From a virus: a DNA stretch of 48,996 nt. The position numbers were made by a program, and so were the translations under genes. The stretch lies in IMG/VR virus record IMGVR_UViG_3300042938_000328, positions 1 to 48,996 of that record; one strand, written 5' to 3'. The notes under the pieces are model-generated. The model was not told where the DNA came from, made no database searches, and was given only the letters and a program-made list of their open reading frames with translations. Each line of letters opens with the position of its first letter. Position 1 is the stretch's first letter. This document shows positions 7,931-46,511 of the stretch, piece by piece.

Positions 7931-9064
7931 TTAGTGATTGAATGGGTAAGTCATTGTCATTGCATCGATTCCGTTGCCATCAGCATACCACCCTGCCCCG
8001 TTGTATACGTCTAGCACGTCTTGGAAGTACTTCTCGTACCTCGGTGCAACCTTCTCAAGTGTGAAGTTCTCCCCAAATGCACGGCAGTCCGCTGGTCTGA
8101 TCCTATCAATGTTTTTGATTGCATCGACGTAGTCACCCATCGTGCGGCATCGATACCCAGTGACCCCGTGGAGGTTGTTCTCAGCGAAGGATCCCCAGTC
8201 AGACGTGATGGTTGGTGTTCCGCTCAATAGGTTCTCGATCTGGACTCCACCGAATGGTTCCACATACTGGCTAGGCAAGAATGATGCCTTGGCTTTAGAC
8301 ATCAGTTCTTTTCGCTTAGGAACGTCAGCATAGCCCACATACTCAACGTGAGGTGGGAATGTATACCCAGCTTCCTTCTGACCCGCTACAACTAGCTTAA
8401 CGCCTGCCCTACGGGTTGCGTCGATTGCGATATCAACTCCCTTGCCAGAGTAAACCCTGCCCAAGTACAGGAAGTAATCCTCCTTCTTGTCGTTGTAAGT
8501 GAAGTCATCGATGTCGAAATAGTTGGGGATCACCACGGAATAGTTATCCTGCTGGCATCTTCCAACTGCACCCATGCCACAGAACGCATGGTAGATGGCA
8601 TAGCTCTCCCAGACCTTCCACTTAGCCCAGTGACCACCAGCGTACCCTATGCCCGGCTCAACTACGATCATATCATGTTGGTGTGCATCACATATCGGTC
8701 GTACTCCAGACCCCCAAAATGAAAGAATAAAGTCGTTCTTTTTCTTTCGAAAACCTACCTCCCGAATGGCATTGGCATAGAACGTCTGGTATGCGTGATC
8801 ATTGGTATCGAATTTAAAGAACGTCTTCCTCCAGTCATGACTTCCGTAACTCTTAGCGAAGTCATCATTGGTCAGGACGCTGACGTGTTCCGTGCAGTCC
8901 AGAACGCTGTCCTCATGCCCGTAGTGGATCACCTCATGCCCCCTATTGGTCATCATCTTGCCAAATTTAACCACCTTCTGCGTGTAGGCACAGGCATTAA
9001 ACTCTTTGGATGTAACTGTGTGTGGAAGTCCAAGTGCGTGGAATCTCATTTTTTCTGTTTTCAT
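7931..9064 (-). CDS. Glycosyltransferase, GT-B fold (GT4-like)
   Basis: A 377-residue retaining-type glycosyltransferase. The C-terminal domain is clear: YFLYLGRVYSGKGVDIAIDA (donor-domain start, about 198-217), KLVVAG, a P-K-E-L helix, and EPFGGVQIE at 269-277, the EX7E nucleotide-sugar signature, followed by SGTPTITSDWGSFAE. The N-terminal acceptor domain is more divergent. Phage enzymes of this type modify DNA bases, virion proteins or host surface sugars; the sequence does not decide which. The next genes are a small helical protein and a methyltransferase, suggesting a small modification cassette. No Shine-Dalgarno is seen; an internal Met at residue 6 is an alternative start. Confidence 0.88.
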   Translation of the reverse strand: MKTEKMRFHALGLPHTVTSKEFNACAYTQKVVKFGKMMTNRGHEVIHYGHEDSVLDCTEHVSVLTNDDFAKSYGSHDWRKTFFKFDTNDHAYQTFYANAIREVGFRKKKNDFILSFWGSGVRPICDAHQHDMIVVEPGIGYAGGHWAKWKVWESYAIYHAFCGMGAVGRCQQDNYSVVIPNYFDIDDFTYNDKKEDYFLYLGRVYSGKGVDIAIDATRRAGVKLVVAGQKEAGYTFPPHVEYVGYADVPKRKELMSKAKASFLPSQYVEPFGGVQIENLLSGTPTITSDWGSFAENNLHGVTGYRCRTMGDYVDAIKNIDRIRPADCRAFGENFTLEKVAPRYEKYFQDVLDVYNGAGWYADGNGIDAMTMTYPFNH

Positions 9065-21495: not shown

Positions 21496-21651
21496 TTATT
21501 CTTCTTCTTGTTCTATTTCTTTTAACAATTCATTTAAGTCAGCACCTTCTTCAAGTGCATCGCTTAAATCTTTGTCATCATCTTCTGTTTGAATTGGAAG
21601 ATCCCTCATTAGTTTAGCATACTCTGCCAAATCTTTTTCATCATTCTTCAT
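21496..21651 (-). CDS. Small acidic protein after the giant virion protein, 51 aa
   Basis: Starts MKNDEKDLAEYAKLMRDLPI and ends DLNELLKEIEQEEE. It is very acidic and helical, and its start overlaps the 3' end of the giant gene by 11 bases, showing coupling. It could be a chaperone or a companion of the giant protein during assembly, given the overlap. No domain recognised. Confidence 0.6.
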   Translation of the reverse strand: MKNDEKDLAEYAKLMRDLPIQTEDDDKDLSDALEEGADLNELLKEIEQEEE

Positions 21652-24600: not shown

Positions 24601-27600
24601 GAGTGATGTCTACTCTCCAGATGGGGGTTGTTTTAGCTGGACTAATTTTAGTTTTAGGGACTGCATTTCGAGTTCTCGTAACCTGAGTCCATGTGCTTTC
24701 TTTTTGAGTAGTTATTTCACTCTTCTCAACCTTGCCACCCATCTTTGCGACATACTTGCCAATCTCTTTAGGCAATATAGTGTCGTAGAATCCCTTCATT
24801 CCTTCACCACCGACTGTGAGATCGTCACCAGTTGCAGTTCCAGAGTTTTCAGCAAGGATCTTAGATGCAACTTCTTTTCCTAGCACCTCGCTCAATTGCT
24901 TTCCATTGGCATCAGCACCAGCATCAGCAAAATTAGAATCATAGGAAAAGTCATAGACGGTTCCATCATCGTTTATTTTACCTGTCAATATTGTGTTTCC
25001 ATCTTTGATGGCAGCAAATGCTTTTTGATAACCCTTTGGAGTATTCCAAGTGATCTCATCGACTGCCTGACGCATTGCTTCCTCGTATCGCTTTACCTGC
25101 TCGATGCCAGTAGTCCACCCAATCCATTTCTTGTCTGCATCAACGGCATCACGCAGTGCGCGTTTAAAGAGTTGGATAGACCAGTCTTTGCGGAATGGTG
25201 CGTCTGGGATTCCTCCAACATTATCAGATGCAATTAAAACATTATCATTAAGACGATTAAATTCAGATGAATGCTCATCACTCCACTTTGATCTATATGC
25301 ATCATGCTTATATTCAGAATCCGTAGCAAGCGGAGGAGTCCCATAGGTTGGTTTAATTACATTATCAACAAAATTTCTTTTTGCTTCTTTTGCAACTTCA
25401 AGTTTTTGTTCTGCCTCTTTATCTTTATACCCTTCTTCTCTGCCTGCCTGATGCCTGTCAGACTGAAACTCCTCGACAAACAACCCCTCGTTACCCTGCG
25501 CGTCAGTACGCTCGTTGAGACGCATATGCGCTACATAGTTGGGTGTTTCAGGGAAGTGGGAGGAGGTGTATTGGTTTTTATAAAGACCAGACTTTTCAAG
25601 TTGCTTATATTCAGCAAATTGTTCATCTGTCATGTATGTTGCTCCAATTTTATTTAATTCATTATATCGTACTAATTTTGGATCAGGCATCGTCATAACC
25701 ACCTCGCGGTAGTTTGTGCCACCGGGGAGTTGTAACCCTGCAAATCTTGGAGGATTAGCTAAACCCTGACCTTGTAAATCTAGCTTCTCTGCCCGTGTAT
25801 TCAAAAACTCGTTTTCTCTGAAATACTTTTCTGCTGTCTTTTTGTCCCCACGTCTTTGAGCTTGTTGAGCCAACGCCATTACTCTCTCTGCTTCACTGTA
25901 TAGAGTGTCAGTAGTGCTTTGATCTCTGATATTCATCAATTTGATCAACTCATCGTACTTGTCCTCTCCGAATGATGGGTCATCAATTGGATGATCTTTG
26001 AGGTTTCTGTATTCAGCCTCAAGTTGATTTAACCTATTCTGATCAAATGCTTCCTTGCCACCAAGCGTCACCTCTTCAAACTTAACAGCACCCTCGTTGC
26101 GAAGGTAATCCATTACCTTGTCTTTCGGAACCTTTCCGTTGTTCTCCGCTGCAAGACGATCAATCTCACCAAGCACTCCAGACCACTTCAGTTCCTCGGC
26201 CTTTGCGTTCTGTGGGTTGGTTACGATTGCCTTCAACTGATCTGGTGACGCAAATTTACCCTGAACCTTTTCGTCGATGGTCTTTTGTAGTCCAGAGTAC
26301 ATTCCACGCTCGGAGGTTGGGTAACGTTCCGTTTCTGCTGGCATGAACTGCGGTTTAACATCAACAAAATCCAATGACTCTTCAGGCATGAATTCATTGT
26401 CAAACATGGAAACAATTCGGATATTTCCATCTTTCTCATCAAGTGATTCCGCTGGTTTTAAGTCATCACCTTCACGCAACCTAGATTCAACTTGGTCAAG
26501 ATTGCCTGTATTGATTGCATTTCTGATCTCTTCAGCGGTTACAGATGGAAGTTCGTTTGCGAAATCCTCTGGAGTTTGGAAGTCTGCCAATGGATTTTCC
26601 GCTGGCATATAGTTCTTTGTATTCAACTCATAGTTGAATGGCATCTTCTTCAAACTCGATTCGTTGTACTGATTGATTCGATCAATTCTACGGCTACGAA
26701 CAATAACATCGATTGGATCTTTTCCTTTTTGAACTGGAAGTTTAGTCCTGCGTGGGTTTGCTGCTTTTGTATCAGCATTCCATACGTTGAATAAATCGTT
26801 TACAGCATTCTTCTTTTCAAGAGCAATAGCAGCATCTGGATCAAGTCCAGTTTCACCACGTTCACCCTTAGAATGGTTATCAAGAACTTTGATCACATCG
26901 TCCCAGAAACTAGCAGTATCACCATTCCACAACTTTAGATTCTCTGGCTTTTTAGCAAGCCAAGCGTTCATCTTGTCATGCATTCTGCTAACAGACATCG
27001 TTGTGATTAGGAAGTTACCTTGCTTAGAAAACTGGAATCCAATTGGAATTTCATCTCGGATTTGCGGAGCTAATGCCCTAGATTTTCCACCTCGCATTGC
27101 GGCTTGATACTCCATGTACATCCTAGTTCCATCTTTCCTTCGCAGGATTTCATTAACAAATAGAATCTGACGTTTAAGATTTGGGGAAACAATGGTGTTT
27201 GGAAGTGCAAGAACAGCGTTAACCTGCGCTTCGCTCATCACTCCACGATAGTTTCCGTTTCCAGTATCCTCCAATTGCAATGCACCTTTGGACAATGCAG
27301 AGTCGATAGCGTTACGAATGACCTTTCCGCGATTCCGTGACCTAGCTTCAATCTCACGATTGGAAAGGATTTTTGGACTTCCATCAACATTGCGAGCGAT
27401 TCGCGTTCCAACCTCAACCTGCGTTCCATCAGGCATAGTGCCAAATGTAATATTAGGCCCAAGATTCATTGGGTTTCCGCTTTCGTCTACCAATTGTCCA
27501 CCTTGGATTCGATATGTTCCAACAAATGGATCCACTCCAGCATTAGGTGGAATAGGGATTTCCTGTTTACTCCCATCTGGAGCGGTCATTGTTGCAACCT

Positions 27601-30469
27601 GTTCCTTCTCGAAAATATCAGAATTCTTAAATTTTTCCTGCAATGTACGATCAGAAAGAATCTTTGTGATTGGGATTTCTACCTCTTCTTTTCTGGAATC
27701 TTCCTCATAGACCATGCTCTGGTTTAGATTCTTTAGTTGCCTTTGGTATTGCCGAATCATTGCAAGCGATTCTGGGGTCAATTCTGCTCCAAGAACAGTG
27801 GATATGTCACCACTATCATCAACGATGATTCCACCCTTGCGTAGTGTTTCTTTGATTTTCTTTAAAGCACCATTCTGAGTGTTGACTTCAATCCAATCAA
27901 CAACCTGTCTTCCAATCGAATCAAGTCCAGCACGGGTTCCACCACTGACATTTCCAGATCTACCTGCGATTTCCGATAGGATTTCCTCTTTGATATATGC
28001 CCGTAACTTATTTTGATCACCACCAAATTGAGATTTGAATGACTCTCCATTGTCGGATGGTGACATTGAAGCGGCATATGTGTCTGCATACGCATCAAGT
28101 TTATCGTCAGAGTAAATTCCCTGTGTGACTTTATTTACAGTTCCATCATCATTTACAATATTCTGGTCAAACAACTCCCTTCGCAATGGAGCAAGCATAT
28201 CACGAACCTCAGTAAATCGTCCAAGTGCGTGTTGCATCTCATGTCCAACCACATTTCGGATATTAAACCCTTCGTTGGATAACTGTTTTACAAGATCACC
28301 ATTAATTACAATAGTTGCTCCTTGCAGGTTCTTCTTACGCATGAATGCAGGGACTTCATTTCCCTCCAGATCACTTCCTTCAGAAATTGCAAGACCACGC
28401 GCAGATTGTGCTGAACCAACTTCATTGTAAAATCCATCTACAATCCTTCTAGAGTTTATTAGGTTTTCACTTTCCTGTGGGCTTAAATCTGGGTTGCCAG
28501 TTAGACTTGCAATTACACTTTCAGCATCAGTCAATGTAGCACCATATGAATTACGGAAGAATCCTTCCATTTCGGATGGATCAAGGATCTTAACTTGAAT
28601 GTTATTTAGACCCGCTGCCTTACCAGTTGTCTTAGCGAGATCCATTTCATCAGCAAAAGCTAGATGTATTTGACGCAAGATTTCCTTTTGTGTTTGCGGA
28701 GTAGATTTATCTAGTTTTTCAATGTTTTGCTTTTGTCTGATAATCTCTTTTTTGATTAACTCAACTTCAGGCCCAAAAGTAACATTCTTTTGTTTTTCAA
28801 GAGCATCAACCTTTGATTGAATCGCTTTCTTGCGTTCATCAATACTGCCCAGTTTTTCCATTTTAGGAACCAAATCTGGATCCACTGAAGACAAGAATCG
28901 TTTAATATCGGCATCCTCATCTGCTCTCCTAGAACTAGGGTCTGGAGTAATGATCGTATCAATCTTCTGTGCAAGACCTGTTCTTGGATCAATAACAGCA
29001 CCTGCTCGCTCCATTATCCGCGAACCAGTAAACGCTCCAATTCCAAATCCAGATCCAGCAGCTTCAAATCCTTGTTCAATTGATTCAATGTCTGGAAGAC
29101 CAAGAATTGTGTTTAATACAGCACCATTCACACCTTGTTGAGTGATGGCATTACCCTGTCTAATCATCCAGTCTGCTGCCCTTGCTCTACCAAGACCACC
29201 TCTTGACTCTGCGCTGAATAATCTTTTTGTTAATGCTCCTGCGTTTGGTTTTGCTCCACCTCGTTCAACCAACCCTCTGCGTCCAGCAGCACCACCAACG
29301 TCAACAGCAGATGCGATATCCTTGAAAGTCCTAGCAATCTCTTTTGTTGCTATTGCCGCTGGTTTTGCTGCTAAAATAGTTCCAGTAATTTGAGGTGCAG
29401 ATATAAGTCCTGCAATGGATCCTCCTCTTATTAAAGTGTCTGGATCACCAGTAACATATTCTCCTAATTTCCTTGCTCCAGTTTGAACACCAGTAATTCC
29501 TTTTTCGGTTAGTTCTGCTACCTTTTCAACTCCAGTAGCAATTGGTTTTACAACTCCCTTTAAAGCTAATTCTCCACCTTTTTGAACCGCTTTACCTGTG
29601 TATTTTCCAATTCCCTTGGTGGCAATGTTAGCACCCGGGATCGATATTGGAGATATAACTTCTCCAAGTGAAGAAATATATGGGTTTAACTCTTCTCTAG
29701 TTAGACCAGATTCTAAAACCAATTCAGAGTACGCTTTCTCTGCTTCCTTGGCATCTTCTTCAGTTCCACCTTGCAGTTTTGCCGCAATTCCTGCGGCTTT
29801 TTGTAATAGCACATTTTCTGCAAGTATTGCTGCCGCACGATCTGGATTTTCGTCTCTCCTAGCTTGTTGATATCCTTGAAAGCGTTCTCTCCAACGATAT
29901 CTTTTAAATCTCTCATCAGCAGACAACCCTTGTAGTTTATCTGTAAATGAAGAACCAGACTCATAACCCTTAATTATTGTTCCTGCTGTATCTTCAAGAT
30001 CAGACATAACTCCAGAAACAGCAGAACGACCCGCAATCTCTGCACCTCTTGCTGCTATATTTGTTTCTTCTGGAGTAGCTAATCCTAGATGGTATTTAGC
30101 ACCAACGTAAACAGGTTTAACAGCACCTTCTCTTGCTAATTCATATGCACCTCTTGCAAGTTCCCCAACTTTAACTGCTGCTACTGGTAAGAATTTACCA
30201 ATTCCTTTTCCAGCTTGTTCAAGCAATGGAACTTTATCTTGTTCATCAAAGATCATTCTTTGTTGAACTTCAGAAAGTGGTTTGCCTTCTGCCTTTAGTT
30301 TTTCAAGTTTAGCAACATCAAACTCCTTTTGAGTACTTTCTTCCTCTTGCTTCTTAAATTCATCATCAGCAATATCAAGAATTGATCCTTGTTCTTGCTT
30401 CTGTTCAGGCTTATTTATTTGTGCAAACTCCTCATCTGCAACATCAAGAATGCTCGGTTCATTTGCCAT
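21641..30469 (-). CDS. Giant polyvalent virion protein (zinc peptidase, two ADP-ribosyltransferase-like domains)
   Basis: A 2,942-residue protein of the large polyvalent class, which is injected with phage DNA to act in the host. Tandem SILDVADEEF and SILDIADDEF occur at 6-15 and 29-38. Residues about 80-480 are Ala/Gly-rich helix, perhaps membrane-active. A zincin-type HEMQH lies at 743-747. A domain with GLFVEEFQSDRHQ follows near 1640. Two ART-like segments begin LYHGTT (His2050) and FHGTPFDVDKF (His2177, with AYGWGLYFA). A conserved C-terminal module with WAARFMRQILHEGSGTPWRI comes last. FMPAE-like peptides recur at five points. It is the largest gene here and sits directly after two smaller virion-type genes. 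Confidence 0.85.
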   Translation of the reverse strand: MANEPSILDVADEEFAQINKPEQKQEQGSILDIADDEFKKQEEESTQKEFDVAKLEKLKAEGKPLSEVQQRMIFDEQDKVPLLEQAGKGIGKFLPVAAVKVGELARGAYELAREGAVKPVYVGAKYHLGLATPEETNIAARGAEIAGRSAVSGVMSDLEDTAGTIIKGYESGSSFTDKLQGLSADERFKRYRWRERFQGYQQARRDENPDRAAAILAENVLLQKAAGIAAKLQGGTEEDAKEAEKAYSELVLESGLTREELNPYISSLGEVISPISIPGANIATKGIGKYTGKAVQKGGELALKGVVKPIATGVEKVAELTEKGITGVQTGARKLGEYVTGDPDTLIRGGSIAGLISAPQITGTILAAKPAAIATKEIARTFKDIASAVDVGGAAGRRGLVERGGAKPNAGALTKRLFSAESRGGLGRARAADWMIRQGNAITQQGVNGAVLNTILGLPDIESIEQGFEAAGSGFGIGAFTGSRIMERAGAVIDPRTGLAQKIDTIITPDPSSRRADEDADIKRFLSSVDPDLVPKMEKLGSIDERKKAIQSKVDALEKQKNVTFGPEVELIKKEIIRQKQNIEKLDKSTPQTQKEILRQIHLAFADEMDLAKTTGKAAGLNNIQVKILDPSEMEGFFRNSYGATLTDAESVIASLTGNPDLSPQESENLINSRRIVDGFYNEVGSAQSARGLAISEGSDLEGNEVPAFMRKKNLQGATIVINGDLVKQLSNEGFNIRNVVGHEMQHALGRFTEVRDMLAPLRRELFDQNIVNDDGTVNKVTQGIYSDDKLDAYADTYAASMSPSDNGESFKSQFGGDQNKLRAYIKEEILSEIAGRSGNVSGGTRAGLDSIGRQVVDWIEVNTQNGALKKIKETLRKGGIIVDDSGDISTVLGAELTPESLAMIRQYQRQLKNLNQSMVYEEDSRKEEVEIPITKILSDRTLQEKFKNSDIFEKEQVATMTAPDGSKQEIPIPPNAGVDPFVGTYRIQGGQLVDESGNPMNLGPNITFGTMPDGTQVEVGTRIARNVDGSPKILSNREIEARSRNRGKVIRNAIDSALSKGALQLEDTGNGNYRGVMSEAQVNAVLALPNTIVSPNLKRQILFVNEILRRKDGTRMYMEYQAAMRGGKSRALAPQIRDEIPIGFQFSKQGNFLITTMSVSRMHDKMNAWLAKKPENLKLWNGDTASFWDDVIKVLDNHSKGERGETGLDPDAAIALEKKNAVNDLFNVWNADTKAANPRRTKLPVQKGKDPIDVIVRSRRIDRINQYNESSLKKMPFNYELNTKNYMPAENPLADFQTPEDFANELPSVTAEEIRNAINTGNLDQVESRLREGDDLKPAESLDEKDGNIRIVSMFDNEFMPEESLDFVDVKPQFMPAETERYPTSERGMYSGLQKTIDEKVQGKFASPDQLKAIVTNPQNAKAEELKWSGVLGEIDRLAAENNGKVPKDKVMDYLRNEGAVKFEEVTLGGKEAFDQNRLNQLEAEYRNLKDHPIDDPSFGEDKYDELIKLMNIRDQSTTDTLYSEAERVMALAQQAQRRGDKKTAEKYFRENEFLNTRAEKLDLQGQGLANPPRFAGLQLPGGTNYREVVMTMPDPKLVRYNELNKIGATYMTDEQFAEYKQLEKSGLYKNQYTSSHFPETPNYVAHMRLNERTDAQGNEGLFVEEFQSDRHQAGREEGYKDKEAEQKLEVAKEAKRNFVDNVIKPTYGTPPLATDSEYKHDAYRSKWSDEHSSEFNRLNDNVLIASDNVGGIPDAPFRKDWSIQLFKRALRDAVDADKKWIGWTTGIEQVKRYEEAMRQAVDEITWNTPKGYQKAFAAIKDGNTILTGKINDDGTVYDFSYDSNFADAGADANGKQLSEVLGKEVASKILAENSGTATGDDLTVGGEGMKGFYDTILPKEIGKYVAKMGGKVEKSEITTQKESTWTQVTRTRNAVPKTKISPAKTTPIWRVDITPEMAGKVRGGQLQFMPAEQPTEYEPISARIRPLQGISAPTKQVGAKALSLGEIEPPVRGKAMLPDIELKPDISPKIDENTELPLNPDGTVTLYHGTTKDSAKKIIDTGLLKSRGEPDVYFTTAKEGTGYGDGTVIAVNIDPKKLIIDDEFPDGRKDFRVPVGKSKQLNVSAKTIEPDISEKGIQSSDIITSAKPAPDAVIKPFSNALVSSAGLINFLPAFHGTPFDVDKFKLANIGTGEGAQAYGWGLYFAQARKVAQDYKDKLTDWNSPGTYEWKGMSLRSDDYKNPIRHAISLVYHQGINQAKQIGKTLQKDSEKGEPYTVEQGGLEYAKKFNDALSQVKSKKEIKFEQGNLYKVDLDVKDEDLLDWDKPLSEQSEKIRNIIKQYHGVKDLGALENRSGSAIYIDFGLPSKGNAESIQKQASSKLLELGIPGIRYLDGTSRFNPKTLEEAKARVKIAQRDLDFNPSNTILSKILKDEQNRLATLEKEQQKNTYNYVIFDENLITILDKNDKPIQGELPRSTGLQFMPAEGAKKPKTAKKEPKKKKEAEKQYITIDSGDDETVPVLQEIRNGKPLTDPKGDPKFVQQKYELLASPFIDNYSGNNPEDTTKPNYDELAYDVSGVAQKKINSAIDSGAVDAAANIMVSKTNEAMKNADISAGSGWYSRMRENLLNALGVEGRELLSQLLGATSAKTPVNENFLQAMDGYEGMKSGRYDSNRKAYLEMINAENKNELNDLIDDRNYIAVIKNKISDLNKAAKKATGKKQKVIQSEAKKLKELIAVKPEDRTKKNRFSIVINASGLMPLRSNGKKFNANSMAVMKVIAGTWLDNRKAPKTPNFAGNLSGRTVQATIDVWAARFMRQILHEGSGTPWRIQPKSETGVTNEDFALGQVVMQRAAKKLGMNPDDLQAILWFAEKHNWDDRGWTGTEGAEKSSFDEIFSVFFPKGKKPLTFSEASEVLKSQKNKDESIDEQIDEETDGDTDEE

Positions 30470-33639: not shown

Positions 33640-34482
33640 TTATTCTTCTTTGTTGTTCCAAGTTACTGGTTTAAATCCTAAGTCTGGTATTACGATATCA
33701 TCGTAAGGTGCAAGGTGCGAAATATTCGTGATCTTTGCCTTTAGCTTTGGACAATCGACGTGTGGGCCTTGGTGACGATCAACGCAATTGAGGCAAGTGG
33801 GATAGAAGTCAGCATTGAGTGACTTGTCTGGGTTATTCATCCACCCATGTTTTCCCTTTACATATCGTGTTGGATCTGGTTTTACGTTGTTTGTTTCAAG
33901 ATATTCGTAAACATCCTCGTCAGTCCAATCTTTTAGCAAGTAAAGTGACACTGGACTTCCATCGACGTGACGAATATCTTGTGCCAATGGAACATGACCT
34001 TTAATCAAGTCTGTATCAGTATATTTAGTTCCGATCCACACTGCATTCCACGGAAAATTAAATGTTCCAGTTGGACGCATTAGAAAGTCATCAACACCGC
34101 ACATAAATGGCTCGTTTGCTTTAGGACGTTCAGTTCCCAAAGATAGAACTATGTTATTATTACCCCAAGGGAAATAATGAAGTAAATCAAATCTAACCTC
34201 ACCAGTTTCTACATCAGGCCCATCAGAAAGACCATATTTTAATGCTGGGTATTCATATACAGATAATTGCCAATCTTTAATTAGCTTATCTGAATATGCA
34301 TATCTTTCGCGGAATTTAGGTTGTCTAAACTGAACAACGGGAAGATCAATTCCACATTTGAATTTTAGAAAATGCAAAAGGACAGTTGAATCCTTTCCAC
34401 CAGACCAAAAGATGACCGAATTGGGCCATTGCTTGTTCCAATTAACTGCTTTATCGATTGTTTTATGTATTAGGTTTTTCAT
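33640..34482 (-). CDS. PAPS-reductase/adenine nucleotide alpha-hydrolase-like protein
   Basis: A 280-residue PP-loop ATPase-fold enzyme. SVIFWSGGKDSTVLLHFLK at 22-40 holds the PP-loop SGGKDS that binds the ATP/PAPS phosphates; LLKDWTDEDVYEYLE and a C-terminal CLNCVDRHQG are also typical of phage PAPS-reductase-like proteins. Such enzymes may reduce PAPS, modify nucleic acids with sulfur, or act in base modification. The start at MKNLIHKTID was chosen because its ATG overlaps the upstream stop (ATGA). Finding it between virion genes is unusual. Confidence 0.82.
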   Translation of the reverse strand: MKNLIHKTIDKAVNWNKQWPNSVIFWSGGKDSTVLLHFLKFKCGIDLPVVQFRQPKFRERYAYSDKLIKDWQLSVYEYPALKYGLSDGPDVETGEVRFDLLHYFPWGNNNIVLSLGTERPKANEPFMCGVDDFLMRPTGTFNFPWNAVWIGTKYTDTDLIKGHVPLAQDIRHVDGSPVSLYLLKDWTDEDVYEYLETNNVKPDPTRYVKGKHGWMNNPDKSLNADFYPTCLNCVDRHQGPHVDCPKLKAKITNISHLAPYDDIVIPDLGFKPVTWNNKEE

Positions 34483-35294
34483 CAAATAATAATTGCAGCA
34501 GTAGCCGCACCAGCAACTGCACCACCACCAGTAATCCAAGATCCCATTGCGGCATTTTTGCTTTGCGCGTTTTGGGCCATGACTTGGTTCATCATGTTAT
34601 TATAGTTCTGAGTGTCAGCAACATTGGCGGTGTGAGCAGACTGGATGTTACCCATTGAGCGGTTAATTGCGTCCTGTGCTGTTTGTCCAAGTCCTTGCGC
34701 TCCAGAGAGGACACCACGTTGCCACTCTTGGAGACTCTGTTGGTTCTGGCCTTTCGCTGCTTGTTGAGCCGCAACCAATGAGCCGGGGTCAATTCCACCC
34801 TGCATTTGTGTTGCATCAAGATACTTTTGACGCAGAGCCAAGTCTTCCAAAGCAATCTGCCTGCCTTGTGCCGTGGATTGGTCAAACATTGCAGACTTGC
34901 CGATAGTGGATCCCATGTCGATTCCAGTTCCCATCATCTGCGCTAATCCTTTTGTCTTTGCCCACTGCCCCAGCTTATCTTGCCAACTCTCAGGTGATGT
35001 TAGTTTCTCAACAGTCTCACCCATTCCTGCTCGCATCCTTGCTGTTGCTGGATCCACCGACTCTTCAAATTGACGTGCGCGATTGGCATTTTCGATACCT
35101 AATTCAAAAGATTGTTTAGATACCGCAGATGGATCAAATGTTTGCTCAATTGGCTTTAATTGGGATGTTAATTCAAGAAATCTAGCTTGAGACGCAAGAC
35201 CACCATACATACCCTTGTTTGCATCAGATGCCATCATCATGTTAAGATCAGGACGAGGCTGTTGAATTGCTGGTTTGTATGTTTGGCCACCCAT
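34482..35294 (-). CDS. Probable internal virion (ejection) protein, 270 aa
   Basis: Starts MGGQTYKPAIQQPRPDLNMM, then Gln/Ala-rich helices (NRARQFEESVDPATARMRAG, QQAAKGQNQQSLQEWQRGVL) and ends in a hydrophobic tail GGGAVAGAATAAIII that could insert in a membrane. The layout recalls short-tailed-phage ejection proteins such as the T7 gp14 type, helical with a hydrophobic end, but sequence similarity cannot be claimed. It overlaps the PAPS-reductase-like gene by 1-4 bases. Confidence 0.55.
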   Translation of the reverse strand: MGGQTYKPAIQQPRPDLNMMMASDANKGMYGGLASQARFLELTSQLKPIEQTFDPSAVSKQSFELGIENANRARQFEESVDPATARMRAGMGETVEKLTSPESWQDKLGQWAKTKGLAQMMGTGIDMGSTIGKSAMFDQSTAQGRQIALEDLALRQKYLDATQMQGGIDPGSLVAAQQAAKGQNQQSLQEWQRGVLSGAQGLGQTAQDAINRSMGNIQSAHTANVADTQNYNNMMNQVMAQNAQSKNAAMGSWITGGGAVAGAATAAIII

Positions 35295-35944: not shown

Positions 35945-38083
35945 TTAACAAGGGTTCTGCGCTTTAAATTGTTGAGCAGCGGAGGTTGCCGATTGCATCG
36001 CAAGCACTCCTGCTTCCTCTTGAGCGTGTTCAAAGCTGATGTAGGACAAAAATGTTGCCGATGCCGTAGCCGAAATCGATTTCGTTGGATCAGCGTTACA
36101 GATCAGCGTTACAGTCTTCCAAACCTTCGCACTATATGAGTTGTCGTTTGCGGATTGTTGCTCGTATGGATTTGGAAGTAAATCAATCGACAATGTTTCA
36201 CCAGTCTGTGCAACAACGCACGATTGCGTCTCATCACCCTGCGGTACACCAGTTGATTTCTCCTGCCAAGGATCCATGAAGAGTCGAACAATTTCCACTC
36301 CAAATTCACCGCACCACTCGATTAGTAACGAAAATGCCTTATCGACATCATCTGTCAGATATGACTCGCAAGTTGAAACAAGGGAATTGCGTTGAGCCGA
36401 TTCAGTCGTAAGTCTTCGGTATTGGGAGTTCAAAAACCCTAGATTCTTAATCTCAGATTCGTATGGTGTATTTTCCCACTGGTAGTCAGAAGTGACTGCC
36501 AGAATGCGTTTCTCTAGGATTGAGTTGTACGATCCCTTGCTGCCTCTGTATGACACTTTTAGATCAACTGTGCCACCAATCTGCGTCGATTCAATCTCAG
36601 CATAGACAAACTTCTTTAAATCCATTTCATCACCAAGCAATGGAGTTTCAAACTGCGAGTAAATCCGATTGTAGAGTGTGGTTGTGGTTTTGTCTGGGTT
36701 GATCTGAAGGTAAGAATCCACTCGTTCTGGTTGGAACGATTCCCAGAGATGGTTGAATGATCCATCGTTTGTTGCTGCGTAATCCACAGAAAAATGGAAG
36801 CATCGAGACTGCCCGTCAACAACACCTGTAGTCCATTCAACTGGACGAGTTCCTGTCCAAACTCCAGCCCATGCTGGGAACCTGCTTTCCCCACTGCCCC
36901 ATTCGGAAGCGGCAGCATAATCCATTACCATCGTGTCTGAATTTAATGTCTGCAAGTAAGGGATAGAATAGAGCAAGTAGTTCTCAAAACCCGTGGCACA
37001 AATCTTGGTTGGGTCTGATGCCATCAATCTTTTAGCCCTTGCCATTTCAACGTCTTTGAATAGCACCTGCGAAGACAGATATGCAGTAGCAGCAGGATCC
37101 GCTGTCATCAGACCACCTTGAGAGTACCACCACATTTGACCTGCTTGGAAAGCGATTGATTTTCCAGCAATGCAACCAACAGTTGGGTAAAGTGTAGATT
37201 GGAAGTTTTCAGTTGTGACCCATTGATCTCGATCAAGGATGCCTGATTTAAGCTGGAAGGTAGAACGATCAGTAAATACGATCAGACGAGTTGACGTATC
37301 CTGACCGACATAACTAGTCATGCCAGTGATAGGACGTGAAAAGCTAAAGTCACCACGGGAAGTGCCTGTTGTACGTTCTTGAAATGAGGTTGGATCACCT
37401 AAATCTGATGCTAGTACAATATTTTTATCTGCAATCCACATTCTGTTTCCAGAGTATGCCATCCAGTATCCCACGGGAATCGTGGAAAGTTGAACACCTG
37501 CTTTATCAGCACCATCCCAGTACGAAGGGTATGAAATGCCATCTTGGATCATTACGATTCGATGCGCTGGTGTAGCGAACTCTTGGGAGCCAGTCGATAG
37601 GTTTGCTGAACGTGTGGCAAGTGCAAATACAAATTGATCGACATCTGGTGACATCGAGATGTTTTTCAGACGAAAATCTTCCCAGTTGCTTGGCTGGACT
37701 AGAGGAAATGGAGAGAAGTAGACGTTTCCATTCACGGCAAATACCATGTAGGACAACTCGCTTGCAACAACACCATTTCCATCCACGTCGAAGATTTTAG
37801 CTGGAGTTGTTGTAATTACCCCATCCCGATCTTGTGTGAGTGCAGCTTCCTTTTGTTTGTTAGAGGAAAACAAAACGCCACCTTGGAAGTTGCCAGCGGG
37901 AAGGGAGAGTTGCATTTTATGCCCCGGCCTCGTTTGAACAATGCCACCACGGACAGTTACATTTACACCCCACTTGAATTGGTTCTCAGGCAATGACCAA
38001 GGATTGCGAACGGAATTTACTCCTTGAATCCATCCTGTTGAGACTTTTTTAAGTCTTCCTGATGTAATGTTTTCACTTTTCAT
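35945..38083 (-). CDS. Tail nozzle-like protein (tail tubular protein B type)
   Basis: A 712-residue virion protein. The N-terminus, WIQGVNSVRNPWSLPENQFK then VNVTVRGGIVQTRPGHK, is typical of tail-nozzle proteins of podoviruses, as is a body of repeated beta strands with periodic aromatic and Gly residues (YWMAYSGNRMWIAD, RLIVFTDRSTFQLKSG). C-terminal 150 residues add a helical and beta part with several cysteines. It forms the distal tail tube together with the adaptor-type protein encoded just before it. The call rests on the N-terminal pattern and position, not on a search. Confidence 0.68.
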   Translation of the reverse strand: MKSENITSGRLKKVSTGWIQGVNSVRNPWSLPENQFKWGVNVTVRGGIVQTRPGHKMQLSLPAGNFQGGVLFSSNKQKEAALTQDRDGVITTTPAKIFDVDGNGVVASELSYMVFAVNGNVYFSPFPLVQPSNWEDFRLKNISMSPDVDQFVFALATRSANLSTGSQEFATPAHRIVMIQDGISYPSYWDGADKAGVQLSTIPVGYWMAYSGNRMWIADKNIVLASDLGDPTSFQERTTGTSRGDFSFSRPITGMTSYVGQDTSTRLIVFTDRSTFQLKSGILDRDQWVTTENFQSTLYPTVGCIAGKSIAFQAGQMWWYSQGGLMTADPAATAYLSSQVLFKDVEMARAKRLMASDPTKICATGFENYLLYSIPYLQTLNSDTMVMDYAAASEWGSGESRFPAWAGVWTGTRPVEWTTGVVDGQSRCFHFSVDYAATNDGSFNHLWESFQPERVDSYLQINPDKTTTTLYNRIYSQFETPLLGDEMDLKKFVYAEIESTQIGGTVDLKVSYRGSKGSYNSILEKRILAVTSDYQWENTPYESEIKNLGFLNSQYRRLTTESAQRNSLVSTCESYLTDDVDKAFSLLIEWCGEFGVEIVRLFMDPWQEKSTGVPQGDETQSCVVAQTGETLSIDLLPNPYEQQSANDNSYSAKVWKTVTLICNADPTKSISATASATFLSYISFEHAQEEAGVLAMQSATSAAQQFKAQNPC

Positions 38084-38085
38084 TA

Positions 38086-41000
38086 CTAGAACATAACTGG
38101 ATCAGTTCCATCACCATAGGTCAAATCATTAATTTGTGGCGGAACAAAAGCGTGACCATCTTGATGTTCTTGCTGATTCTTCAGGTATGCCAAAGAAAAG
38201 CCCCAGTAACGCAATGCCTGTTCAGCAAAGTCCTTATCCTCAAGGTCACAAGCGTGTACAGCAGTGATGATTGCGCGTGTATGCTCAATCGGGATAAAGT
38301 CGTACTTTGAAGTGATAACTGGAGGCTTAATACGATAGGCAATTCTTGCCCACGCGCATGGTTTGCCAATGCGAATCCTGCGGTATTGTGGATTGACTTC
38401 TGTAGGATGGTATTGACCAATCAAAGTCAAATCGTTGCTGCGTCCGTAGTCCATTGCATACAAACTAACAAACCCATCCGTGATTGGCTTTTGAATATTA
38501 GCAACACTCTTGACCAAGATTGGATCTTGAATGGCATCAACGAAGAACTTGCTGTCCGTGGATAGTCCGCTTGTCAAAAATGAAATCCTGCCAGTTGTGC
38601 TAGTTAAATTCTGAGATTGTGACTTTGTAGTGTACAATTCAAACTCATCGTTGTCGATGCGACGAACAAAGTATGTCGTTCCTGCCACAAGACCAGATGG
38701 AAGTACATCACCAGAATCGGCTCGTACAGTCACCGATTGACCCGTAGTGTAAAGCGAAGCGTCAGCAACGATACTAGTGGATGGGGATGCCGTAAATGTG
38801 CGTTGGATATCGAGCGACAACTGACCAGTGCCGGGGGTTGTGATTGGAACCAGAACTGATGAAGAATACACGTTAACACTATCTCCAATCACCCTAACTT
38901 GGTAATCCGTTCCAGCAACCAAAGGAGAAGGAAGAACTCCGCTTGTAGAGAATTTAACAGTCTCATTTTCCTGCAAGAACTGCACGGACGAGGGTTGGAT
39001 TAGATTGTTGTATGGAAGCGGAGAGACAGAGAATCGTTTTGCGTAGTACGATTGACCAGTTCCGAATGATACCACACTAATTTGACCAGTTGTTCCACCA
39101 GCAATGGCATCTACCGATGAGGTATATGCCCTAGCAACCGATGTAGATGATACATTGAGATATGCGGGAGTTGAACCATTATCAATTGCAGGACTGGTTG
39201 TTGGCAACAAATAGTCAGTTCCCCAATAAATGGTTGATGGGGTGGTTAAATTAGTGAAATCACCTAGCCACTTGTTAGTAAATGCAACTCCAAACACGCG
39301 AGATAACACAACATAGAATGTTCCAGTTGCAGAAGATGTAATGTTAATCTTGCTGAAATCAGCGTTCTTAACAGTGAATACTCCAGTGGACGAGTTTAAT
39401 GGAGTTTCTGCCCTATAAGATGTTCCAGAAAGCAATGGGGATGGAAGTGTGCCAGTCGAAGAGAATTGAACGAATACACCAGTGGATGGTGTGATTGATA
39501 CTGTCGGTGGAGTTGTGTAGCCAGTGCCACTTGTTACCACATTAAGTGCAGTTACAACACCACCCGCAATGTTTGCTGTTGCAGTTGCTCCAGATCCACC
39601 ACCACCAGTTATTTCAACCTGCGGAGCATTTACATATCCAGAACCACCAGAAATTTGAGTGAATCCAATAACAAACGATGTTTGAATGGTAGCATTTGCA
39701 ACCGCTTGAGTGCCTGTTTTAAGTTTAACCTTTAATGTTCCAGTTGCGGGAGAAGAAAACGCTTCAATCGTTCCAGTTGCAGGTGTTGTTAAACTAGAGG
39801 AAACAGTGTATGTAAATGTTGTTCCAGATGCGGTTAATAGCGTTTTATTTCCATTGTATCCATCAGGATTAGCACCACTAATTGCAATAACCTGACCCGG
39901 ACTAAACCCATGTGCAGCAGTTGTTGTTGCAGTTGCGGTTGTTCCTGCTCTTACTAATCCAGTTGGGCCTGAAACAATAGAAACTGTTTGTCCGATTTCA
40001 GTAACAAGCTGATATGTAAATGATGTGGAACTTAATACTGTTACAACGAAATCTCCATTGTAAGCGGCTTGATCTGCTCCAGATATTGTGACTGTATCAC
40101 CAGTTCTATAGCTATGATTTCCAGATGTATTAACAGTAACTGTAATACCATTTGTAACCATTGATGTGATATTAATTAATGGAGATACAGGAGGAGCGGA
40201 AATTGTTACAGAAGGTGCGGTTGTGTATCCGAATCCGGGGTTATCGATCACAATCGATGACAACTGGTATGTAATCGAATTACGAATAGCATACCCAGTC
40301 GCAGTACTCACGGAAATCGTGCTTCCCAAGGGAGGTGCTGGAGGAGCGGAAAATGTTACTATAGGATCGGCAGTGTACCCAGAACCTTGATCAGACAAGT
40401 TAACAGAGGTAACACTTCCAACCACGATGGGAGTGAAGTTTGCTCCCGCTCCAGATGGAGACGCAATGGAAAGACCCGGTGCGGTGATCTGGCTGGCTTC
40501 TCCTGCCACAGCAGATGCTGGAATTAGCTTAATAAGCGAAATCGTACCAACTCCAGCCGATGTGATCTTAATTGGATTTACAAAATTCGCAGGAGAAGAT
40601 GCAAGTGCGTCCGCTTGTGTCGTATGGATCGAAACCGCTTTTGTATCTACAATGTTAACAAAGTAGTTTTGGTTTGCCAACAAAGGTTGTGGAAGCGTTC
40701 CACCAGAGGTGAAGACTTGGACTTGATCACCTTGGGTAAGCAAGTGATCAATACTGAATGTCAATTTTGTCTCTGGAACGATTTCCTTTCGGATATCGAC
40801 GTTGATTGGATTCGTTGACCCAGTCGTGTGAACTTCGTTAACATTTGCTTGTGCGTCAGAGATCGAACTAAAAACTTGCAGGTGCGTTGCGTCCAGCAGA
40901 TTTCCAAAGTAGGTAACTCCAGATTTAATGCCAATAGGCAAAGTTTGCCCAGATGGGAAGGTGATTGGATTTGCAGTCGTTATTTCGATAGTAGGAGCAG

Positions 41001-41838
41001 ATGCGAATTGAAGAGCAGTCACGACAAATGAAGTCCTTGAATCAAGGAATTTCAATGGCCCTGCTCCTACTATACTTTGGAGGGAAATTGGATAATTACC
41101 TGCCTGTGCGTTGAGGGAATCGTTGTAGATTTGAATGGTCAGCGCATCGAGAACACCAATGTAGTACGTCTGACCATTGGAAAGCGGGACTGGGATAGTT
41201 CCAGAAATCGCAGTAATAGCCATTCCCTGACCAGAATCTAGCGTGTGAGGGGTTGCGGACGCAAACTTGCTAATCGGGGTTATAGTGACCTCACGGGTGC
41301 GAATAGTGGCATCGTCAGGAGCAATCGTTCCATAAGCGAAATCAGATTGCGAGTGGATTGGAATGAGTAGACCATCAACTCCCGTTCCATCTTTGAGTTG
41401 GCTGCGAAGATCTCGGTTGTTGGAGTCAGTTCCAGTGACGCGAATGATCTTGCCAACGTCATTTTCGCTTTCGGCAATGGCAACCAACTGCGAGGGTTGG
41501 ATGATCTGCATCAAGGTCGCTACATAACCTCGGTCATCCCATGCCCATTCTACAGTGTTGAATTTACCACCTTTATTAACATGGTATTGGAACAGACGAT
41601 TGCGGAAGTAGACTGGGGAACCATCTACATTAACCGCAAGGGGAACGTCTATTCCACGGGGAAGAGCGATTGTGCAACCATCCCATCCTGTGCAAACATC
41701 AACGTCAGCAGTGGATTGCATCCAGTGACCAGACTCCATAAGGGTCTGAACTGCTTGCGTGATTTTGCGGTAAACTCTTTTCTCGTCAGTAGTTCCTAAA
41801 ATCTCCGCACATTCCTCAAAGATTTGATCGACAAACAT
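38086..41838 (-). CDS. Adaptor-like tail protein with long inserted beta-repeat region
   Basis: A 1,250-residue virion protein. Residues 1-130 ([36 protein letters not shown]) and the last 160 ([34 protein letters not shown]) look like halves of a podoviral adaptor or tail-tube A protein. Between them lie about 950 residues of repeated modules: six copies of a G-x-LP-x-P-L-x-x-G-x-x-Y unit, two of an S-G-A-x-x-x-x-Y-N-G unit, and several G-S-G-Y-x-x-x-P-x-V units. Such modules resemble surface-exposed Ig-like or fibre domains. It precedes the nozzle gene by two bases. Confidence 0.6.
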
Positions 41839-41847
41839 GACGATAAA

Positions 41848-42165
41848 TTAACGCATGGAACCCTCGGATGCAATAGAATTCAGAAAATCTTCTTCGCTTG
41901 CCATTGCTGCATTTTCAGCGGCAGGTGCTTTGCCTTCTAGCGATTCAGTTGCGGCTTTTTGACCTTCAACGTCAGCGGCAAGAGCATCGATAACACCAGC
42001 GAGTTGCATGGCAATGCTGTGCAATTCGTCAAACTTAGACTTGGCAACAGAAATGGTGACCGCACCCTCTTCTGCCATTGGAGAAGGGATTCCGCTCATG
42101 TCTTCGGGAAGATCCATTCCCATTGCAGGTTCGGGCATTACTGCCTCTGTTGTTGGTTTTGCCAT
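41848..42165 (-). CDS. Hypothetical virion-associated protein, 105 aa
   Basis: Starts MAKPTTEAVMPEPAMGMDLP. Acidic, Ala/Met/Glu-rich, with one helix (SKFDELHSIAMQLAGVIDAL). Composition resembles small scaffold or decoration proteins but no domain is recognised. Three bases separate it from the next acidic gene upstream, and the pair lies between fibres and the adaptor-type gene. Confidence 0.5.
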   Translation of the reverse strand: MAKPTTEAVMPEPAMGMDLPEDMSGIPSPMAEEGAVTISVAKSKFDELHSIAMQLAGVIDALAADVEGQKAATESLEGKAPAAENAAMASEEDFLNSIASEGSMR

Positions 42166-42880: not shown

Positions 42881-44179
42881 CTATTTAGCTTTCAATGCTG
42901 CAACTTCAGCAGAGAGTTCTTGGATAGCTTTGAGCATTGGAGCAATCAGTTCTTCGTAACCGATAGAAAGAACATCATCTCCACCTTTTACAGAGTGATC
43001 TTGGAATCCACCGAAATCAATGCCTTTAGAGTCAAGAACTGCTTTTACCTCTTGAGCAATCAAACCATGATGGAATCGGCTACGCTTCTTTGATCCATCG
43101 TGAGTGATGTTAGCAAGTTTTACGTCTTCCAGCCACTTGTCTTTAAGAACAACGTATGCTTCGTATGCAGCAAGTTCTTCTGCGTATTTAGCTTTGTCTT
43201 CGTCAGAAGCATCTTCTTTGAGTTCTGTTGGTTTAACAACAGATTTAGGTGCTTCTGGACGATAATCTTCACGCAAGTCCCACTTAAAATCAACTGGACG
43301 AAGTGCGTTTACGAACTCAAGACCAAGAGTTGTGTCACGAATATCAGCTTTATCACGGATGTCAGAACGATTTTGGACTGCTCCGTATGCGTAAGTTGTA
43401 GTAGCTGCATCTCCAAGCTGGATTTGGTTATCTCCAGTTACTTGAGCGTTATATCCAAATCCACCAATATTTGAAAATGTTGTATTGTTGGAAAGCGCAA
43501 ATGTACCGCTTGCCGTATTGTAGTTTCCAGTTGTGTTGGAGTCGAGTGCGTTTACACCGCTTGCAGTATTTTCAATACCAGTTGTGTTTGCGAAAAGTGC
43601 GGTTGAACCGCTTGCAGTGTTGGCGTTTCCAGTTGTGTTTGATGCTAATGCTGATGCACCGCTTGCAGTATTTTGATATCCAGTTGTGTTATCTCGAAGT
43701 GCGACTGAACCGCTTGCAGTGTTGCTGTATCCAGTTGTATTATCTAGAAGAGAAGTTACTCCTAACGCTACATTTTGATAGCCAGTTGTGTTGGACTGGA
43801 GTGCAGCTACTCCATTGGCTGTGTTGTTGTATCCAGTTGTGTTGAGCTGGAGTGCGGATACACCAACTGCCGTGTTGTCTGCTCCAGTTGTGTTGTATTG
43901 GAGTGCGGTTGCTCCATTGGCTGTGTTGTTGGTTCCAATTGTATTGAACTGGAGTGCATTTACACCAGTAGCTGTGTTTTGTAATCCAGTTGTATTGGTT
44001 AAAAGCGCATTTCTTCCAACTGCCGTGTTTTGAAGTCCAGTTGTGTTTGCAAGCAGTGCGTCTCTGCCAATTGTTGTATTGCTTACAATATTTCCTGACC
44101 CCATTCCAACAGTAAGCCCGTTGATAAGCGTGTCTTTGTCGAGGTTGATTACGTTAGTTGTTGCTTTTGTGAGTGCCAT
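42881..44179 (-). CDS. Tail fibre/spike with 17-residue repeats and S74 chaperone domain
   Basis: A 432-residue trimeric-type fibre. Residues 45-231 are eleven 17-residue NTTGxxNTAxGxxALxx repeats, the beta-helix-like head repeat also seen in bacterial trimeric adhesins. The C-terminal domain carries RSDIRDKADIRDTTLG, the autocleaving Ser272 and Lys277 dyad of the S74 intramolecular chaperone, then SRFHHGLIAQEVKAVLDSKG and a coiled coil ending SAEVAALKAK. The chaperone folds the trimer and is normally cut away. Host-receptor binding is the likely role. Confidence 0.88.
   Translation of the reverse strand: MALTKATTNVINLDKDTLINGLTVGMGSGNIVSNTTIGRDALLANTTGLQNTAVGRNALLTNTTGLQNTATGVNALQFNTIGTNNTANGATALQYNTTGADNTAVGVSALQLNTTGYNNTANGVAALQSNTTGYQNVALGVTSLLDNTTGYSNTASGSVALRDNTTGYQNTASGASALASNTTGNANTASGSTALFANTTGIENTASGVNALDSNTTGNYNTASGTFALSNNTTFSNIGGFGYNAQVTGDNQIQLGDAATTTYAYGAVQNRSDIRDKADIRDTTLGLEFVNALRPVDFKWDLREDYRPEAPKSVVKPTELKEDASDEDKAKYAEELAAYEAYVVLKDKWLEDVKLANITHDGSKKRSRFHHGLIAQEVKAVLDSKGIDFGGFQDHSVKGGDDVLSIGYEELIAPMLKAIQELSAEVAALKAK
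43487..44047 (-). repeat. Eleven tandem 51-bp repeats inside the S74 fibre gene
   Basis: The 17-residue protein repeat is mirrored in DNA as eleven units of exactly 51 bp, with the plus-strand core CCAGTTGTGTT recurring in nearly all. Units differ at several bases, so they are old rather than newly amplified. The block could gain or lose units by recombination, changing fibre length. Confidence 0.9.
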
Positions 44180-44219
44180 AATTTTAGTTTTCTATTTTAG
44201 TTGATTAGTTGTTTGTTTG

Positions 44220-46511
44220 TTAAGCTACAGATAGTGATACTATGGTTATTTCTGATCCAGATGGAATAGGTGTCGAGAAAGTTAATGTCCTTGGGATTAT
44301 ATTGTCAATTGTGTAATTTGTTGATTTTTGGTAAATGCCATCTACATGAACCAAGTATGCTGGAGCAAGTATAGACAATGCACCAGTAATTGCAAATACT
44401 GTTTGAATACCATCTCCTGTATATGCCCATGCGTTACCAAAGTTTGTTGGTGGCAATACACCAGTTGCACCTGTGCTTCCTTGCGTTCCAACTCCAGTTG
44501 CACCTGTGGCCCCAGCCAAACCAGTTGCACCGACTAAACCAGAACTAACAATTGCAAAAATTAAGTTTTGTGCATCAATAAATTGTGAAATTCCTCCAGA
44601 AGTTACGAGCGTTACTGGAATAGAAATGTTGCTATTTAAAGTAACAACTGGAGTTGCTGTAATTTCCCAAGTTTGAAAATTAGTTGAGTTGCCTTGATCC
44701 TGAATGACAAATTTATCTCCTGTCTTGAACAACGGGAAGAAAACGTCAATATCATTCCCAAGTGAGTCAAGATGTGAAAGAGTTACATTCGTTGCAGAGT
44801 TTTGGGTAAGATTATTCCAAATAATCCGTCCGTTTGCTGGAACTCCTGAAATATTTACCGCATCTGCTTGGTAGTTATAGAACGATGACGATTGACCGGG
44901 CAATCCTGTGGCACCGACCAAACCCGTGGCCCCTGTCGGGCCACCAGATGGGCCTGTGGCCCCTTGAATGCCATTCAACGACACAATAACGATTGTTGAT
45001 CCAACAGGAACAGCACTTGACATTACAAGAACATAAGGAATTCCAGCAGTAATTGAATAGTTATTTGGATCTTGAGTTACCCCATCTATACAAACCAAAT
45101 ACCCAATAGGATTAGTTGTTGTCGCACCAGAAATGTTAAATGTTGTTCCACCAGCACTAGAAGACCAACGCATTCCCCCAACTGGGCCTGCATTTCCTTG
45201 CGGGCCTTGGATGCCAGTGCTTCCAGTCGCACCCAATCCACCATCACCAGTAATTCCGATCATCCAATCCGCAAAGTTTCCGCTTCCTTGGACTTTATCT
45301 ACTTGTAGCTTTACCCACGAATCGTTTACTTCAATAACAATTCCCTCAACCCAATCCCACGGATATGCTGAGTCAGCAACTGCACGGAGTCGAGATCCGT
45401 ATGTCCACCCAATAGGGGCAGTTGGGCTAAAGTAAAATTGCTTGTATCCAAGAGTGATATTATGTGCAGTAAAACTTTGACGAACAATTACTGGAGAAAT
45501 GCCAGTTGCGCCATCAACTCCGTTTATCCCAGACGCGCCAGTGCTACCCTGCAAACCGATTCCAGTTGAACCGATTGGCCCAACAATGCTAACAATAACA
45601 ATCTGTGTTCCACTTGGAACGGCAGATGACATTGTAAGAGTGTATGGAGAACCAGAATTAATTGTATAATTATTGGGATCTTGAGTGATACCATCTAAAG
45701 CCACTAAATAAGCTGTCTCTAAAAGACTTGTTGCTCCAGAAATTTGAAAAATAGTTTGTGAGCCATTTCCTGTGTATGCCCAACGCTGACCGCCTCCAGC
45801 AGCGGTTCCAGAGATGCCTTGAGGCCCAGTGGCCCCAGTGGCCCCACCCGGTGTTCCTTGCAACCCCGTGGCCCCTTGAACACCAGTGCTTCCAGTACTT
45901 CCAGTTACGCTCAAACCAGTCGCTCCAACAACACCAGTTGAACCGCGTTGTCCTGTAGCACCAGTGCTTCCAATTACGCTTAAACCACTTGCGCCAGTTG
46001 GGCCTGTGGCCCCAGTGGCCCCTGCTCTGCTAGAAAGCTCAACAATAGTAAGAAATGATCCAGATGGAATGGGGGTTGAAAATGTTAATACTCTCGGAAG
46101 ACTTGTGGAAATAGTATATCCAATTGGGTCTTGAACAACGCCATCAATATATGCCAAATAACCAACATTGTTTGGTTGGTGCGCTCCCGGTAAAGGAAAT
46201 GTAGTTTGACCACTTCCAGAAAAACCCCAACGCAAAAACTCACCACCAGATAAATAGTCGTTAAACAATCGAATAAGATAGCAAAGTAATCCTTCTCCTT
46301 CTTCACGGGGAATGTCATCTACTTCAGCGGTATTGTTGGGATCGCAAGGGATATCCCAAACAACACGTCCATTAACTACGCTTTTGCTAATTGTTCCATA
46401 AAGAGCATAAACAAGGTTGCTAATTAATGAAGGAACGCTTTCGCTTGAAATTTGCGGATATGGGATGTCTTGCCTACAGACATTACTATTTGAATCGTTG
46501 CAACATGACAT
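44220..46511 (-). CDS. Collagen-like tail fibre with four repeated beta modules
   Basis: A 763-residue fibre. After an N-terminal anchor (about 1-92; note CCNDS and CRQDIP cysteines), four homologous modules occur at about 95-160, 243-309, 448-513 and 694-761, each reading W-(S/Y)-x-G-x-G...TxF-x-I-x-GA... then Y-L-x-x-(I/L/V)-D-G-(V/I)-x-Q and a final I-V-x-(S/E)-L. Gly-Xaa-Yaa stretches (GATGATGPTG, GSTGSTGVQG) join them, along with one unique domain near 345-425 and one at 540-660. Trimeric collagen-like shafts with such modules bind host surfaces. Confidence 0.85.
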   Translation of the reverse strand: MSCCNDSNSNVCRQDIPYPQISSESVPSLISNLVYALYGTISKSVVNGRVVWDIPCDPNNTAEVDDIPREEGEGLLCYLIRLFNDYLSGGEFLRWGFSGSGQTTFPLPGAHQPNNVGYLAYIDGVVQDPIGYTISTSLPRVLTFSTPIPSGSFLTIVELSSRAGATGATGPTGASGLSVIGSTGATGQRGSTGVVGATGLSVTGSTGSTGVQGATGLQGTPGGATGATGPQGISGTAAGGGQRWAYTGNGSQTIFQISGATSLLETAYLVALDGITQDPNNYTINSGSPYTLTMSSAVPSGTQIVIVSIVGPIGSTGIGLQGSTGASGINGVDGATGISPVIVRQSFTAHNITLGYKQFYFSPTAPIGWTYGSRLRAVADSAYPWDWVEGIVIEVNDSWVKLQVDKVQGSGNFADWMIGITGDGGLGATGSTGIQGPQGNAGPVGGMRWSSSAGGTTFNISGATTTNPIGYLVCIDGVTQDPNNYSITAGIPYVLVMSSAVPVGSTIVIVSLNGIQGATGPSGGPTGATGLVGATGLPGQSSSFYNYQADAVNISGVPANGRIIWNNLTQNSATNVTLSHLDSLGNDIDVFFPLFKTGDKFVIQDQGNSTNFQTWEITATPVVTLNSNISIPVTLVTSGGISQFIDAQNLIFAIVSSGLVGATGLAGATGATGVGTQGSTGATGVLPPTNFGNAWAYTGDGIQTVFAITGALSILAPAYLVHVDGIYQKSTNYTIDNIIPRTLTFSTPIPSGSEITIVSLSVA

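Follow-up and report, generated by a model that had tools for sequence, protein, structure and literature searches.

Does a phage protein of 1250 aa, most of it built of repeats, belong to the neck adaptors, which are normally ~200-residue rings and purely structural? The protein is encoded at 38086-41838 (minus strand, ATG start) in a 48,996-base IMG/VR virus record, a phage fragment that was analysed at its full length (the window). Two conserved modules, an N-terminal one (residues 1-170; 41329-41838, minus strand; 86% mean column identity across 12 relatives) and a C-terminal one (residues 1088-1250; 38089-38577, minus strand; 81%), enclose a middle of about 915 residues that is composed of six A units, two B units and four C units. 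The middle (residues 171-1085) contains no cysteine, is 27% Ser+Thr and has few charged residues, features in which the ends differ from it. Every intact relative shares this framework of conserved ends, into which a modular region built of repeats is inserted.

The units were defined by self-comparison, and each was tested by a leave-one-out profile against the best of 1000 shuffles. The initial annotation had counted at least six copies of a G-x-LP-x-P-L-x-x-G-x-x-Y unit and two other repeat types, and both counts hold in this test: 11 of the 12 units outscore all 1000 shuffles, the exception being the C unit at residues 716-748. The signatures are G-x-LP-x-P-L...Y for A, a FCCH-like barrel for B and GSGYxxxPxVxI for C. 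When held out, the six A units score 23-38 bits (7-14 bits for the best shuffle) and both B units 29-31 bits (9-13 bits), while three of the four C units lie above every shuffle (14-23 bits). As a pattern, G.LP.PL..G..Y is found at two places in its strict form and at five when relaxed, compared with about 0.001 occurrences per shuffled protein.

Read along the protein, with all coordinates on the minus strand and bits given for the unit and its best shuffle, the array begins with three A units, at residues 185-262 (41053-41286; 28.3 and 11.4 bits), 270-345 (40804-41031; 32.8 and 9.8) and 350-433 (40540-40791; 35.4 and 7.2). These are followed by two C units of the GSGYxxxPxV type at residues 468-500 (40339-40437; 17.9 and 11.7) and 518-550 (40189-40287; 23.3 and 11.4), and then by the B units at residues 558-620 (39979-40167; 31.1 and 12.5) and 626-690 (39769-39963; 28.9 and 8.8), the second of which has a phrog_9998 match. 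The third C unit, at residues 716-748 (39595-39693; 10.9 and 12.1), is the weakest of all, and its region matches PHROG connector and baseplate families; the fourth occupies residues 757-787 (39478-39570; 14.4 and 12.2). The array closes with A units at residues 783-845 (39304-39492; 23.4 and 14.2), 952-1009 (38812-38985; 31.4 and 7.2) and 1020-1087 (38578-38781; 37.5 and 12.3), the first two being separated by a further β-rich segment that was assigned to no unit (residues 851-945; 39004-39288).

An AF2 model was made for a relative, L148 (61 sequences, mean pLDDT 72.8). It comprises two helices, strands, an array of β-domains (mostly pLDDT 80-93), further strands and two final helices, and the β-rich segment (residues 776-870 in L148 numbering) is predicted as strands with blocks at pLDDT 81-92. 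In a Foldseek search the B barrels resembled E1 FCCH domains with a probability of up to 1.00 over ~110-130 columns, with E-values of only 0.02-0.1; a Pfam match of the first B unit to PF16190 (E1_FCCH) at residues 565-613 is weak and lies under the curated cut-off (E 0.0011). From the model, the B units are thus predicted to adopt an E1_FCCH-type barrel fold. The B and C units also have matches among PHROG families for connector, baseplate and fibre proteins (phrog_9998, 701, 2885, 19630 and 5342), which identifies them as common phage structural modules. Endosialidases at the top of the Foldseek list were discarded, because their alignments, with rmsd values of 28-64 A across hundreds of columns, amount to repeat-on-repeat superposition. 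A sequence match to an Asgard tubulin was likewise attributed to chance in a T/S/G-rich stretch.

Relatives were found in the viral contig collection, where 110 stretches match the whole protein and 214-279 match one end. No relatives of the C-terminal end or of the neighbouring nozzle-like gene were found in GTDB genomes, and among cultured phages (tblastn, 50,697 phage records) the matches are limited to parts of the repeat array, with none for the C-terminal end. From these relatives, 77 distinct sequences of 1063-1496 aa contain both ends; they come from many metagenomes, and contig ends or broken frames truncate a few of them. All 77 carry the whole array in one frame, so that the central part is not an independent fibre gene in homologues, the arrangement that the initial annotation had named as speaking against an insertion. 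A separate C-terminal ORF in L124 was rejected as evidence for a split gene, since a 28-base duplication shifts the frame there, and the split in L054 resembles a frameshift. No short homologue lacking the array was found, so that a derivation of the gene from an ancestral short adaptor by insertion is hypothetical.

The order of the units is constant in the 77 sequences, AAA-CC-B(1-6)-C(C)-AAA, while the number of whole units varies, some relatives having seven A units or one more B near the end. The A triplets that flank the array are its most constant part. Insertions and deletions between units measure about 65-95 aa or 164 aa, that is, approximately one or two units. For instance, L148 has a single, divergent B unit as against two in the window protein, with a nozzle gene that is 98% identical (locus L028), and L091 has three more B units than the window protein. 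L091 carries a 75-aa insert that shares 90.5% identity with the corresponding unit of L145, a member of another lineage, and only 39-45% with the B units of L091 itself, which argues for gain by recombination and not by recent duplication; the additional A unit seen in L140 also occurs in other members, at 72-100% identity. Judged from sequence comparison, exchange of whole units by recombination is the likely mechanism of this variation, and the array may first have arisen by tandem duplication.

The ends are mostly 70-100% identical among the relatives, whereas the C2-B-C3 blocks are 26-60% identical in many of them, and the drop to 26-60% is seen in several relatives even where the ends are 90-100% identical to those of the window protein. 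The fibre genes behave differently. The collagen and S74 fibre genes are absent or replaced in three relatives (L006, L017 and L053), in which the adaptor-like protein is 97% and the nozzle-like protein 99% identical; the genome that holds L053 (G004) has β-helix spike-type genes at the fibre position. In close relatives the fibre pair at 42881-46511 (minus strand) is replaced, and the small gene at 41848-42165 and the array gene are nearly unchanged. That array variation is not in step with fibre replacement speaks against a leading role of the array in determining the receptor and in favour of a structural frame formed by the ends.

We think, with a probability of about 0.55, that the protein is a subunit of the neck (adaptor) ring of a short-tailed phage. 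One argument is the predicted αα-β...β-αα order of the ends, which agrees with the T7, P-SCSP1u and SU10 adaptors, where a helix bundle is combined with a β fibre dock (PMC6702177, PMC10575957, PMC9509320). In the L148 model the N-terminal helices correspond to residues 7-14 and 19-35, with strands following, and the C-terminal module consists of strands and then two helices at about 1187-1200 and 1205-1227 (1112-1125 and 1130-1152 in the numbering of L148). By eye, the ends also display an adaptor-like pattern (LG, a helix ending in W and a P near a strand in the one; a strand, a P and an Ala-rich helix pair in the other). The initial annotation described an adaptor-like tail protein in which repeats are inserted and the two ends look like one small tail-adaptor fold. 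The modular middle and the conserved ends bear out the insertion of repeats, and the predicted order of elements is consistent with the shared fold, but the fold itself did not emerge from the comparisons. The sheets at the ends are poorly predicted (residues 73-127 and 1027-1077 of the L148 model have pLDDT <50), and Foldseek returned no adaptor among the matches listed, only the inserted barrels. Against PDB and PHROG the N-terminal module gave matches at chance level only and the C-terminal module none, and neither end has a meaningful sequence match to any PDB chain or to the T7, P22, N4, epsilon15 or BPP-1 adaptors (best P 0.04). HHalign of the ends with eight T7 gp11 relatives gave probabilities of at most 0.3%, with column-shuffled controls scoring higher, and comparisons with P22 gp4 and others were not significant. 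Adaptors are known to share a fold without sequence similarity (PMC6702177).

The other argument is the position of the gene directly before a nozzle-like gene, an adaptor-nozzle order that is also that of T7 relatives and P22. The next gene (35945-38083, minus strand, 712 aa) adjoins the array gene in every relative checked, and it is a probable tail nozzle, as suggested by weak PHROG matches together with gene order. Its phrog_511 match, in relatives, is weak and covers approximately residues 200-344, and the family was sought without a match in T7, P22, N4, phiEco32, BPP-1, epsilon15 and LUZ24, so the family name is uninformative; the AF2 model of the nozzle-like protein has a pLDDT of 37.6. 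The large genes examined in the window all lie on the same strand. In transcription order the array gene is preceded by genes for a metallophosphoesterase, a collagen-type fibre and an S74 (endosialidase-chaperone) fibre and by three small ORFs. Farther downstream lie a DnaB-type helicase gene and the gene of a 2942-aa protein (21641-30469, minus strand) with DUF7178 and weak ART-PolyVal matches, which is likely an ejected polyvalent protein. No tRNA was found in the 48,996 bases.

In a related genome, G001, a gene resembling terminases (weak phrog_2 match) is found upstream and points the same way; together with the large polyvalent-type protein downstream in the window, this context also speaks for the adaptor reading. 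Beside the terminase-like gene are ORFs of 803 aa and 394 aa that we guess to be portal and capsid. These three genes (within L240:3750-15059) have practically no tblastn match in the 50,697 phage records, which points to an uncultured lineage. The same genome encodes an FGE-sulfatase-fold protein (L240:12835-13818) that contains one B unit at residues 121-185; this fold is often employed by variable receptor proteins. Three further genes of the window (all minus strand) were also noted. A glycosyltransferase gene (7931-9064) has a very strong phrog_3408 match (E 1e-191), unlike most genes here, and a phosphoadenosine phosphosulfate reductase-like gene (33640-34539) lies within the tail module. 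A 961-aa protein (1893-4778) resembles, over residues 99-526, DNA helicases of Salmonella and Vibrio phages, some of them annotated as intein-containing.

An adaptor fold was thus not detected at the ends, and this favours a reading in which the protein is a separate appendage of the neck or tail (a whisker, sheath or fibre-like structure) anchored by both ends, while the true adaptor is a small ORF of the head-tail module. G001 does have other ORFs of ~190-200 aa, near the terminase-like gene and before the fibres, and the closest structural matches of the array protein are long β-repeat structural and baseplate proteins of cyanophages. We nevertheless regard such an appendage as rather unlikely, since both ends are strongly conserved, whereas fibre tips vary, the array protein stays nearly constant when fibre genes are swapped, and its gene directly precedes the nozzle-like gene. 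Alternatively, the ends could be the adaptor and the array a building element, its β-domains packing round the nozzle as a sheath or tail extension. This would resemble SU10, whose nozzle contains four inserted Ig-like domains that are wrapped around the tail and straighten out at genome release (PMC9509320), and the constancy of the flanking A triplets would suit it; an array with 1-6 B units and whole-unit exchange is hard to fit into a tightly packed symmetric sheath, and we consider this arrangement improbable. Broken frames in a few records (L054, L124 and L029) could be taken to mean that the ends and the middle are not one virion protein, either because the array is excised or because assembly or annotation has produced a spurious gene. 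That explanation is largely refuted, and its remaining probability is very small, by the 77 distinct sequences from many metagenomes with both ends in one frame and by the L124 duplication, which is typical of assembly or sequencing errors.

Returning to the reading as an adaptor, we propose that the ring body would consist of the N-terminal ~170 and C-terminal ~160 residues, both conserved, with about 12 copies sitting on the portal and the two parts of each copy folded together. A chain of about a dozen small β-domains would stand in for the loop or sheet that occupies the 'fibre dock' position in T7/SU10. This chain of the middle is probably an arm outside the tail, which would protrude or wrap the nozzle; it could add reach, low-specificity adhesion or stabilisation and leave receptor choice to the separate fibre and spike genes. 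A bolder version, in which the neck ring doubles as a domain-shuffling adhesion organ with ~12 arms of about a dozen β-domains each, which unit exchange would diversify without regard to the fibres, is a tentative proposal that we hold to be doubtful. If exchangeable β-domains of ~900 residues in all are indeed carried by an adaptor, short-tailed phages would have at their neck a site for surface-exposed modules that evolve apart from the receptor-binding fibres.

Compared with the dodecameric adaptors of T7 (gp11), SU10 and P-SCSP1u, the window protein is similar in the predicted helix and strand order of its ends, in the β-rich part predicted to lie between bundle helices two and three and in the position of its gene directly before a probable nozzle-type gene. 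However, those adaptors have ~200 aa, as against 1250 aa with a ~915-residue β-domain middle here, and sequence similarity is undetectable. The E1_FCCH-like/GSGY β-repeats of phage tail and baseplate proteins are the families matched by the B and C units, but they are located in fibres, baseplates or proteins of no assigned role and have no adaptor-like frame. The tandem BACON repeats of crAssphage form a tail-linked β-domain array in which whole units are exchanged and duplicated (PMC6949934), and the array described here likewise evolves by whole units; they belong to another domain family and to a tail-associated ORF, not to a neck-type protein. A precedent for the arrangement is the T4-type cyanophage neck protein (PF11649; PHROG 460, head closure Hc2), which also has C-type units between conserved ends. 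In the 463-aa neck protein of Synechococcus phage S-SRM01 (QPX48167.1), a T4_neck domain at residues 4-178 (match 5.8e-28) is followed by four C units at 202-361, and its C-terminal end occurs in 435 phage records, mostly of cyanophages, with most of the matches listed annotated as neck proteins. Unlike the window protein, in which PF11649 has no match, it contains C units only and belongs to a T4-type (Kyanoviridae) phage. On sequence grounds, therefore, a neck protein with these units between conserved ends has a precedent and is not unique to this lineage; the present case differs in its size, in having three unit types and in its probable short-tail context. That units of one kind enter neck proteins unrelated to each other, as the S-SRM01 protein shows, points to a general route.
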